Assembly (NCBI RefSeq): GCF_014204915.1
Contig: NZ_JACHMH010000001.1
Coordinates: 372,001-436,000, forward strand
DNA length: 64,000 bases
Source: Crossiella cryophila
GTDB lineage: Bacteria; Actinomycetota; Actinomycetes; Mycobacteriales; Pseudonocardiaceae
Direction: 5' to 3'
Below, piece by piece: positions 10,702-12,461 of the stretch (position 1 is the first letter of the stretch; each line of letters opens with the position of its first letter). The notes under the pieces were generated by a model. It was not told the origin of the DNA, ran no database searches, and worked only from the letters and a program-made list of their open reading frames with translations. A program made the position numbers and the translations under genes.

Positions 10702-11316
10702 ATGAACCTGATGCCGGACCTCGCTGGGCTGGGACCGCTCACGGTTCTGCTCATCATCACCGCGCTGTGCGTGGTCGAGGCGACCCTGCTGATCGGTTCC
10801 CTGGTGCCGGGCGAACTGGTGGTCATCGCCGGCGCGGTGACACTGGGGCCGGAGTACTTCCCGCTGGTGGCCATCACCGCCGGTCTGGGCTCACTGCTCG
10901 GCCAGACCGGCGGCTACCTGCTGGGCCGCGGCACCGGCGGCCGGATCAGGTACAGCTGGGCCGGGCGCAAGCTGGGCGAGCACCGGTGGGCCAGGACCGA
11001 GGCGCTGGTCAAGGCGGCGGGCCCGAGCATGATGATCGCGGTCCGGTTCGTCGCGGTCGGGCACACCCTGGCGCCGATCCTGGCCGGTGCGATGCGGGTG
11101 CCGCCGCGCCGGTTCTTCTTCCTCGCCGCGGTCAGCTCGATCGGCTGGTCGAGTGTGTGGGCGCTGCTCGGGTTGTTCGCCAGCAGCCTCGGCCAGGCGA
11201 TGGACAGCCAGTTGATGGCCCTGGCGCTGGGTGTCGCCGGCATGGTCGTGGCCGGGATCCTGCTCACCAGGGCCGCCAACCGGGCCCTGCCGGTCGAGGT
11301 CAGTGGTCGTAGCTAG
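10702..11316 (+). CDS. DedA family integral membrane protein
   Basis: A 204-residue DedA/SNARE-associated family protein with a hydrophobic N-terminal span, the family's VPGELVVIAGA-type re-entrant region, GQTGGYLLGRGTGG, and the conserved R-F-x-A-x-G-H-T segment (VRFVAVGHTLAPILAG). DedA proteins are proposed lipid-carrier flippases (undecaprenyl phosphate or phosphatidylethanolamine) needed for envelope integrity. ATG 10702 follows GTAGGGATG, a usable ribosome site. Its 3' end overlaps the convergent secreted-protein gene by 17 bp. The family is clear; the exact lipid substrate is not. Confidence 0.9.
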   Translation: MNLMPDLAGLGPLTVLLIITALCVVEATLLIGSLVPGELVVIAGAVTLGPEYFPLVAITAGLGSLLGQTGGYLLGRGTGGRIRYSWAGRKLGEHRWARTEALVKAAGPSMMIAVRFVAVGHTLAPILAGAMRVPPRRFFFLAAVSSIGWSSVWALLGLFASSLGQAMDSQLMALALGVAGMVVAGILLTRAANRALPVEVSGRS

Positions 11317-11770
11317 TCACCTGGATGTTGACCACGTTGTTGGTGTGGTTCTGCTCGGAGCGGCGGTGGCCGTCCGCCGTCACCGGGATGAAGGTGTGCG
11401 AGGTGGAGCCGTCCGTCACCCCGGTCACCGTGATCTTGGGCAGGCTCTGCCCGTGCTGCAGGTTGACCTGGTTCATGCAGAAGAACGACCAGGGCTCCGA
11501 GGGCTCGGGCACGCAGTCCCAGCCCTCGCCGGTGGCGGTCAGCTTCAGGCCCTTGACCCTGGGCGCGTGCACCGCGCCCACGCTGCCGGACTCCGTGCCC
11601 AGGTTGGTCACGGTCAGCTCGAAGTTGAACGCCTCCCCGTTGTATGCCTGGATGTCGGTGACGTTGCTGGCCATCGCGATGTCCCACTGCAGTGCGGGGG
11701 CGGCGTTGGCGACCGGCGCCGTGACGGCGAGCACGGTCAGGCCGATCGCGGTGAGGGCGAGCTTGCGCAT
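11300..11770 (-). CDS. Small secreted protein, unknown function
   Basis: A 156-residue protein with a classical Sec signal peptide (MRKLALTAIG followed by a hydrophobic core, probable cleavage after VANAA). The mature part of about 130 residues looks all-beta, resembling a DUF11/CARDB-like Ig repeat (NFELTVTNLGTESGS, NNVVNIQVT) and contains two Cys that could form a disulphide. No catalytic motif is visible. A good ribosome site (GGGAGGAACC) precedes ATG 11770. The 3' end overlaps dedA by 17 bp in a convergent arrangement. The call of a secreted beta-sandwich protein is well supported; its role is unknown. Confidence 0.8.
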   Translation of the reverse strand: MRKLALTAIGLTVLAVTAPVANAAPALQWDIAMASNVTDIQAYNGEAFNFELTVTNLGTESGSVGAVHAPRVKGLKLTATGEGWDCVPEPSEPWSFFCMNQVNLQHGQSLPKITVTGVTDGSTSHTFIPVTADGHRRSEQNHTNNVVNIQVTSYDH

Positions 11771-11857
11771 GTGGGTTCCTCCCAGTGAGTGGATCTAGCT
11801 ACCCAGCACATTCACGCACAACCGGGGCGTCAGGTTGCCCGGAATCCGGGACACGGG

Positions 11858-11886
11858 TCGACGCGGGCCGATGATCGTGCCAGAAT
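11858..11886 (+). promoter_or_regulatory. Putative promoter of the attenuator leader and chorismate mutase
   Basis: A -35-like TCGACG (11858-11863) and a -10-like CAGAAT (11881-11886) are separated by 17 bp. The start point predicted about 7 nt later falls on the GTG of the leader peptide, implying a leaderless transcript, which is common in actinobacteria. Both boxes match consensus only partly. Confidence 0.4.
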
Positions 11887-11893
11887 CGGCGAC

Positions 11894-11956
11894 GTGGCTC
11901 ACCGCGCGTTCTATTTTTTCTACGGGTACCGGACTCCGGCACCCGTGGTCAGCTGA
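11894..11956 (+). CDS. Phe/Tyr-rich leader peptide of chorismate mutase attenuator
   Basis: A 20-codon frame, GTG start to TGA, whose product contains AFYFFYGY: three Phe and three Tyr in seven of eight consecutive codons after Ala. Phe and Tyr are the two end products of the branch controlled by chorismate mutase, the next gene. Such a run of regulatory codons is the hallmark of ribosome-mediated attenuation, where stalling for lack of charged tRNA-Phe or tRNA-Tyr allows read-through. There is no ribosome site, but a predicted start of transcription at or next to the GTG would make it leaderless. It is followed by the alternative RNA folds described at 11924-12003. Confidence 0.75.
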   Translation: MAHRAFYFFYGYRTPAPVVS

Positions 11957-12003
11957 CGCCAGCCGAACCACGACCGATGCCCCGGAGTCCTTGGACCCGG
12001 GGC
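11924..12003 (+). promoter_or_regulatory. Attenuator: pause, antiterminator and terminator folds upstream of chorismate mutase
   Basis: Three mutually exclusive helices can be drawn. Pause hairpin: GGGTACCGG (11924-11932) with CCGGCACCC (11936-11944), one mismatch. Antiterminator: GGACTCCGG (11931-11939) with CCGGAGTCC (11982-11990), 9 bp perfect. Terminator: GCCCCGGAGTCC (11979-11990) with GGACCCGGGGC (11993-12003), followed by TTT. A ribosome stalled on the Phe/Tyr codons (11909-11929) would block the pause arm and leave the antiterminator arm free; one reaching the stop at 11954 would cover it and let the terminator form. Confidence 0.75.
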
Positions 12004-12061
12004 TTTGTGCTGCGGGGACCGGGATAGCCGGGTCAGACCACCCGAGCAGATGAGGATCACC

Positions 12062-12346
12062 ATGAACGCCGCGCTCGACAGCGACTCACAGCCCACCAGC
12101 ACCGACGGCGACATCAGTTCGCTGCGCGAGGAGATCGACCACCTCGACGCGGAGATCCTGCGGTTGATACAGCGTCGCACCGAGGTCTCCCAGACCATCG
12201 GCGCCGCGCGGATGGCCGCGGGCGGGCCCAAGATCGTGTACAGCCGGGAGATGGCGGTGCTGGCGCGCTTCCGCGAACTCGGCCCCGAGGGCAAGGAGCT
12301 GGCCATGATCCTGCTCCGCCTCGGCCGCGGCCGTCTCGGGCGGTGA
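12062..12346 (+). CDS. Chorismate mutase, AroQ (AroQ-delta) type
   Basis: A 94-residue all-helical chorismate mutase converting chorismate to prephenate, the committed step to Phe and Tyr. The core reads LREEIDHLDAEILRLIQRRTEVSQTIGAAR, here cited only as its pieces LREEIDHLDAEIL and LIQRRTEVSQTIG, with Arg and Glu residues in family positions. Length and place beside pcrA match M. tuberculosis Rv0948c, whose activity depends on a complex with DAHP synthase. ATG 12062 is chosen because GAGGATC lies about 6 nt upstream; an in-frame ATG at 12050 lacks one. The C-terminus ends LRLGRGRLGR, the region used in the DAHP synthase complex. Expression is probably controlled by the attenuator at 11894-12003. 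Confidence 0.93.
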   Translation: MNAALDSDSQPTSTDGDISSLREEIDHLDAEILRLIQRRTEVSQTIGAARMAAGGPKIVYSREMAVLARFRELGPEGKELAMILLRLGRGRLGR

Positions 12347-12368: not shown

Positions 12369-12461
12369 GATTTTTCGCTCTAAGTCGCCTCGTCGTGCAC
12401 CCGCCGCACGCGAAGCAAGCTTCGGATGCGTCGGGCACACGACAAGGCAACGCGAAAAATC
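12369..12461. repeat. Nested 93-bp imperfect inverted repeat
   Basis: Outer arms GATTTTTCGC (12369-12378) and GCGAAAAATC (12452-12461) are perfect. A second pair, 12387-12397 with 12438-12448, matches 10 of 11. The centre is GAAGC-AA-GCTTC (12412-12423). The element is locally less GC-rich than its flanks and sits between chorismate mutase (+) and a convergent deacetylase gene (-). It could be a bidirectional terminator or a small non-coding mobile element (MITE-like). Confidence 0.6.

Follow-up and report, generated by a model that had tools for sequence, protein, structure and literature searches.

In the window analysed here, by which the whole stretch of 64,000 nucleotides of Crossiella cryophila DNA is meant, the chorismate mutase gene is preceded by a real, widely conserved element that is very probably an attenuator. 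The interpretation in which we have considerable confidence is that of a leader-peptide transcription attenuator setting expression of the mutase by the supply of Phe-tRNA and Tyr-tRNA. Chorismate mutase stands at the branch point to phenylalanine and tyrosine, and it would very probably be turned up when these two amino acids run short.

Anatomy of the leader region and its gene

Features of the region are listed in Table 1. The identity of the controlled gene as chorismate mutase, already proposed in the first-pass annotation of this DNA, was borne out by matches above cut-off to the NCBIfam profiles TIGR01808 and NF005894 and the Pfam profile PF01817, and by a match to a solved chain labelled RV0948C (E 4.8e-30). 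The window's mutase is by sequence a relative of Rv0948c, itself a studied enzyme, and presumably belongs to the AroQ-delta class named by that annotation; the ATG at 12062 was taken as its start, and it is the only mutase match in the window's genome. A position next to uvrD1 had also been claimed, but uvrD lies approximately 1.2 kb upstream on the opposite strand with two genes between, a VTT-domain gene (+ strand) and a DUF11-like gene (- strand, under the Pfam cut-off) being located between uvrD and the leader. Downstream of the mutase is a histone-deacetylase-domain gene on the - strand. An imperfect palindrome with perfect 10-nt ends was observed between the mutase and deacetylase genes (12369-12461). 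It contains CGAAGCAAGCTTCGG, a sequence with a single occurrence in the window; a search of 298 loci recovered this sequence solely from copies of the window's own locus and from L004 and L158 (Crossiella sp. SN42). The palindrome is possibly a small repetitive element.

The leader ORF sits 105 nt upstream of the mutase gene and reads as previously stated, with 20 codons and a run of Phe and Tyr codons. In addition to the five control codons there is a further Tyr codon at 11927-11929, and the leader is, as far as its sequence goes, a short ORF enriched in end-product codons, as is characteristic of an attenuator. A pause hairpin had been proposed at 11924-11944; it is present, although folding and covariation gave the slightly wider limits shown in Table 1. 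The 9-bp perfect antiterminator was confirmed, GGACTCCGG being the exact reverse complement of CCGGAGTCC, and the terminator stem was found where it had been described, with only TTT following. Terminator and antiterminator share one arm, are mutually exclusive and are both conserved, a second characteristic of attenuators. The RNA fold of 11894-12010 was predicted at -53.6 kcal/mol (z = -3.64), and none of 200 shuffles was equally stable. Rfam covariance models gave no match to the window at the gathering threshold, whether to the T-box riboswitch or to any other family, and no match to 11850-12100 at E up to 1.

Table 1. Features of the leader region and the chorismate mutase gene, with positions in the window
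Feature	Position	Strand	Basis or remark
Candidate -35 hexamer TCGACG	11858-11863	+	17 bp before -10; read by eye
Extended -10 TGC CAGAAT (hexamer 11881-11886)	11878-11886	+	7 nt before leader start codon
Leader ORF MAHRAFYFFYGYRTPAPVVS, 20 codons, GTG to TGA (11954-11956)	11894-11956	+	ORF list
Control codons TTC TAT TTT TTC TAC (F Y F F Y)	11909-11923	+	Sequence read
Pause hairpin (1:2), 11921-11926 with 11942-11947 and 11929-11932 with 11936-11939	11921-11947	+	Folding, covariation
Antiterminator 5' arm GGACTCCGG	11931-11939	+	Sequence, covariation
Additional covarying stem, 5' arm CGTGGT	11944-11949	+	Arm-swap test; pairs with 11967-11972
Additional covarying stem, 3' arm ACCACG	11967-11972	+	Arm-swap test
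Terminator hairpin (11979-12003) and short U-tract TTT (12004-12006)	11979-12006	+	Sequence, folding, covariation
Antiterminator 3' arm CCGGAGTCC, also in terminator 5' arm	11982-11990	+	Sequence, covariation
Shine-Dalgarno-like GAGGA of mutase gene	12052-12056	+	Sequence read
Chorismate mutase gene, 94 aa	12062-12346	+	Profile matches and solved-chain match

Distribution, promoter spacing and covariation in relatives

The mutase was found in 247 of the 249 genomes of the window's family. Seventy family loci were sampled (30 plus 40, picked among the matches listed to span many genera), and 69 of them carried an upstream short ORF with at least three Phe or Tyr in six residues when CTG starts were allowed; the exception, L052, comes from a genome (G061) that has two mutase matches and carries the element elsewhere. 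A larger set of 229 loci (L001-L070 and L079-L237) comprised 222 with the mutase and seven without it, which were set aside, and removal of duplicates left 192 unique loci. A fixed leader pattern, with ATG, GTG or TTG starts, was present in 180 of these 192 (67/69 from the family, 66/66 named and 47/57 others), in a sample that leans towards close relatives. Named loci with a leader include Amycolatopsis, Lentzea, Saccharopolyspora and Pseudonocardia, and leaders were also found in Mycobacterium talmoniae and Mycolicibacterium rhodesiae. Peptides from elsewhere include FYYGTGSPAAVGRA (family f3), F.FTYGNRP..CHGRAA (f20), FFFYG (f33) and FFYGYRPP (f37), among others. The leader was found in 180 of the 191 loci with 430 nt of upstream sequence, compared with 1/191 on the antisense strand and 0/130 downstream; each of five dinucleotide shuffles gave 0, 1 or 2 among 191. 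Intergenic terminators are common, and a terminator belonging to the upstream gene, with the leader a chance ORF, might be envisaged; but the nearest gene upstream of the leader (11300-11770) is encoded on the opposite strand and points away from it, and with the ORF pattern so rare in shuffles the probability of such an arrangement is negligible.

Twelve of the 192 unique loci lacked the fixed leader pattern: L052, L014, L156, L147, L151, L154 and six from family f2 (L116, L117, L119, L120, L121 and L122). L014 has FFYE and misses only the fixed pattern, and L156 offers just 52 nt of upstream sequence. In family f2 the leader looks to have been lost. By eye, L121 and L122 have an in-frame GTG of the mutase frame 7-8 nt after a -10-like box; the mutase itself may start at that GTG, and these loci are perhaps natural deletions of the switch. 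In L116 and L119, both from genus g48 of family f2, a -10-like box is followed by a short ORF with few aromatic codons, and a common stretch, GGTCTGTTTCACGGTGAA, precedes the mutase.

Covariance-model searches gave a broader picture. A first model, derived from 58 family rows, gave hits in 51 of 296 genomes when the class was searched with an E-value limit of 0.001, and the mutase lay close behind the hit in 22 of the 29 loci taken from among the stronger hits. The remaining seven were not before the mutase: L101 and L104 precede DAHP synthase, and the other five look like chance matches, L103 lying by eye at a tRNA-like stretch. A second model, of 67 rows, was used under stricter filters that lose weak matches. 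In the order, with an E-value limit of 1e-5, it gave hits in 246 of 298 genomes, representing 60 of 77 genera and counted irrespective of the gene behind; in the phylum, with a limit of 1e-6, hits came from 19 of 346 genomes. Besides one full-length strong match to the element, the window's genome gave 18 weaker ones with E-values of 10 or less, including the element's two antisense images. A check for a conserved leader frame and stems in relatives had been proposed in the first-pass annotation; both are conserved, the former in the 180 of 191 loci above and the latter as covarying helices, and the breadth goes beyond what had been expected, taking in those 246 genomes of the order plus other families of the class.

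The position of a -10-like box was also conserved. The -10 box in the window was recognised through its conservation in relatives; a promoter consensus scan of the window region found no promoter, and for this reason the candidate -35 hexamer is taken to be a weak box. A gap of 6 or 7 nt separated the end of the best xAxxxT hexamer from the start codon in 153 of the 180 leaders, a raw count without shuffle control, and the commonest such hexamers were CATACT, CAGACT and CACACT. This spacing is expected when the start codon is, or nearly is, the first transcribed base, which makes it probable that the leader is translated leaderless, without a 5' UTR. The -10-like box likewise points to a transcription start at the leader's own start codon rather than downstream of 11960.

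To assess covariation, 67 of 96 sources were hand-chosen with one match each and aligned to fit the pause hairpin and terminator (alignment A5); families f13, f15 and f19 are outside the covariation counts because the first model matched them weakly or not at all. An alignment of the best 150 of 206 matches from the 96 sources (A4) was dropped, containing loose matches of which some were antisense. For the pause hairpin and terminator together, 96.1% of cells were paired in the 67 rows, 44 cells showed a double change against a shuffled mean of 6.7, and the covariation score was 0.150 (shuffled 0.076; slid at most 0.037), all within an alignment fitted to this structure and against shuffles that do not remove relatedness. 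Among the double changes in the pause hairpin are C-G to U-A (8 rows) and G-C to C-G (12 of the 67 rows); in the terminator, relatives have double changes at 7 of the 11 pairs. The alignment had not been fitted to the antiterminator, which was 89.8% paired with 21 double-change cells against 6.5 in shuffles; its score of 0.151 compared with 0.086 when shuffled and with 0.107 and 0.039 when slid by -1 and +1, respectively. Three antiterminator pairs had a double change, a count also reached in 313 of 500 shuffles.

Exact complements of at least 7 nt between the antiterminator arms were frequent in Pseudonocardiaceae (53/66; shuffled 0.174) and in the DAHP synthase leaders described below (16/23; shuffled 0.215), weak in family f20 (5/11; shuffled 0.305) and in mixed other families (6/19; shuffled 0.229), and the signal was absent from Mycobacterium-type leaders (3/17; shuffled 0.165). 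The additional stem gave a native score of 5.07 compared with a mean of 4.34 and a maximum of 4.62 for 500 arm swaps, with 55 of 58 rows parsed and relatedness uncontrolled. The predicted fold can also accommodate this stem between the terminator and a pause hairpin of reduced length, and because of this alternative placement it was not assigned to the antiterminator. Swapping of terminator arms changed the mean from -21.0 (native) to -17.9 kcal/mol, pairing not being weakened for every sequence. Automatic terminator picking combined with an inter-family arm swap selected wrong hairpins in several rows, the window's included, and was not relied on.

Two sets of substitutions separate structure from coding, as judged from the alignment. 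Where a Tyr codon changes from TAC to TAT the opposite arm changes in 8 rows and a U-G pair results in 3, and in Mycobacterium-type rows column 43 is G, not C, so that pause-hairpin pair 33-43 is non-standard (it is unpaired in 15 of 67 rows overall), whereas antiterminator pair 43-117 survives, as G-C or G-U, in 13 rows. The peptide itself could be the active agent, with FFYG.RTPAPV stalling the ribosome independently of Phe- and Tyr-tRNA charging, and this sequence or a near variant is indeed present in most of the 70 family loci. However, in L011, L012, L013 and L028 the frame shifts after YG (FFYGPGLRRP) with hairpin nucleotides kept, and in other families it is the aromatic codons and the structure that persist, the remainder being different (SAVPVV, GCHGRAA or GSPAAVGRA after YG). 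The conserved C-terminal part of the leader peptide is accounted for by the RNA arms, and nascent-peptide arrest is very improbable.

The U-tract after the terminator stem is short, with 29 of the 67 rows having three T or fewer in the next 8 nt and 55 having 2 to 4. Together with the lone TTT of the window and the attenuators without a U-rich stretch that a study of S. lividans reports, this would suit a variant with unchanged sensing in which Rho, or a U-poor terminator of unusual type in place of a classical intrinsic one, brings about premature termination. Against this stands the covariation of the terminator helix described above, albeit in an alignment fitted to it, which indicates that the hairpin matters; we regard the variant as possible but rather unlikely.

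Predicted behaviour of the leader with a translating ribosome

A leader-peptide attenuator sensing Phe-tRNA and Tyr-tRNA would act as follows. Transcription would begin at or beside the GTG, with ribosomes loading at a leaderless 5' end, and the first structure to form would be the pause hairpin, holding RNA polymerase until the ribosome catches up. With charged Phe- or Tyr-tRNA scarce, the ribosome would stop on codons 6-10 and cover the 5' arm of the pause hairpin, freeing the GGACTCCGG arm to pair with CCGGAGTCC, and no terminator would form so that the mutase would be transcribed. With charged tRNA plentiful, a ribosome on codons 11-20 would cover the antiterminator arm and allow the terminator to form.

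Equilibrium folding was carried out with ribosomes of an assumed footprint placed along the leader. Before the 3' arm of the terminator is made, the predicted probability of the antiterminator was 0.82 in the absence of a ribosome and 0.83 for a ribosome at any of codons 1-9; it fell to 0.50 at Tyr codon 10 and to 0.00 at codons 11-20, and was 0.57 at the stop codon. Just before terminator completion the pause hairpin was at most 0.01 for every ribosome position, and with the complete leader transcribed the terminator reached at least 0.98 wherever the ribosome stood. No switch was thus seen at equilibrium for ribosome positions along the leader, and switching must therefore be kinetic. The positions of the control codons fit the stalling scheme, but at equilibrium the antiterminator is just as available while the ribosome occupies codons 1-5 as when it has reached codons 6-9; the leader geometry in this model would allow classical attenuation.

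Control might instead be exerted on translation, with the leader governing access to the mutase ribosome binding site, and for M. tuberculosis cysteine biosynthesis genes translation attenuation is mentioned in PMC13236596. However, predicted pairing and accessibility of GAGGA and the start region of the mutase are approximately the same with and without the terminator, the distance from the leader start to the mutase match ranges from 145 to 400 nt among loci, and the terminator that closes the switch in the window lies approximately 45 nt before the Shine-Dalgarno sequence. These points render translation attenuation improbable as compared with the transcription attenuation described above.

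Amino acid logic and comparison with known attenuators

In 178 mutase leaders, read up to the anchor, Phe and Tyr together made up 647 of 1632 residues (400 Phe and 247 Tyr), and Trp was present before the anchor in three leaders (three residues). The earlier statement that the codon content matches the end products of the enzyme is thereby upheld, and the near-absence of Trp is as expected for an enzyme that makes none. Leaders containing the motif [FY][FY]YG, of which there were 147, had TTT as the first codon of the motif in 142, this TTT being at 11915-11917 in the window; by contrast, the mutase genes at these loci, as read from the match on, contained TTC 43 times and never TTT. A rare TTT codon could sharpen sensing.

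DAHP synthase feeds all three aromatic amino acids, whereas chorismate mutase feeds only Phe and Tyr. A DAHP synthase gene was found in 80 of 197 genomes and 30 loci were examined, of which 18 had an aromatic leader. Fifteen of these are from family f18, where all 15 DAHP synthase loci found carry a Phe/Trp/Tyr leader (for example FWRFYG, WSFWYG and AFWFWYG), and the others are L278, L279 and L280, the latter two without Trp. The leader of L272 is weaker, a match at L283 was judged to be chance, and ten of the 30 loci had no aromatic leader. The phylum matches from outside the class, L295-L298, precede DAHP synthases with 63-64% identity to that of L101 and have leaders such as YFWFFG, YFAWWYLG and GYFGFWFFYGG. 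DAHP synthase leaders with Phe and Tyr and mostly also Trp codons, accompanied by a terminator, were observed in other families and beyond the class at L101, L104, L255-L267, L269, L275, L278-L280 and L295-L298. No aromatic leader was found at 17 DAHP synthase and prephenate dehydratase loci in five genomes of the window's genus, a set outside which lies one DAHP synthase locus of the window's own genome.

Leader codons thus match the pathway, DAHP synthase feeding three aromatic amino acids and the mutase only two, and the mutase and DAHP synthase leaders likely share descent. Whether they represent one ancient leaderless attenuator module across Actinomycetota, reading Phe/Tyr at the mutase and Phe/Tyr/Trp at DAHP synthases that we take to be type I-beta, with the TTT codon maybe a sensitiser, is in our estimation evenly balanced. 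If true, leader codons would match the pathway branch below the controlled gene. A testable rule follows, namely that the amino acids read by the leader depend on the gene controlled, and there are lineages apparently without the switch as well as a candidate new RNA family.

A Phe/Tyr leader at the mutase had been called not commonly described, and in the open-access literature searched no description of an attenuator at chorismate mutase was found, though an earlier description elsewhere is possible. Attenuation did not appear in the titles or abstract openings of papers naming Rv0948c, and phenylalanine, tyrosine and chorismate are absent from the main text of the S. lividans leader study. 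The mechanism appears to be of a known kind, with the target gene and the breadth undescribed in the literature searched; the element would provide a gene-level switch for chorismate mutase in mycobacteria and other actinobacteria, for which none was found in that literature.

Several known systems resemble the one proposed here. The actinobacterial attenuators of Seliverstov et al. 2005 (PMC1262725) are likewise of the classical type and concern other amino acid genes, and that survey states that none of the conserved kind of RNA structure was observed ahead of actinobacterial Phe/Tyr operons. The S. lividans leaders trpL1, leuL and ilvL and the M. tuberculosis ilvB1 uORF are, according to the publications describing them, short ORFs with product codons as in the window; the S. 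lividans leaders are leaderless, some of them lack a U-rich stretch, and the leaders listed for that species are for Leu, Trp, Ala, Ile, Met and Thr, unlike the Phe/Tyr of the window. In E. coli the pheA attenuator (pheL) also precedes an enzyme with chorismate mutase activity (CM-PDT), and pheA is described as regulated by charged Phe-tRNA (PMC11802643); it differs in belonging to another phylum and a fused enzyme, whereas the window's leader adds Tyr codons and probably has a leaderless start. A further system is the aroR leader upstream of aroF, encoding DAHP synthase, in C. glutamicum, the detection of which is given in PMC4046766. As told in PMC11802643, transcription there is increased under Phe limitation (Neshat 2014) and Tyr supply is said not to matter. 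Like the window's leader, aroR is a short actinobacterial leader, with the codons Phe-Tyr-Phe, but it controls DAHP synthase whilst the leader in the window would control chorismate mutase.
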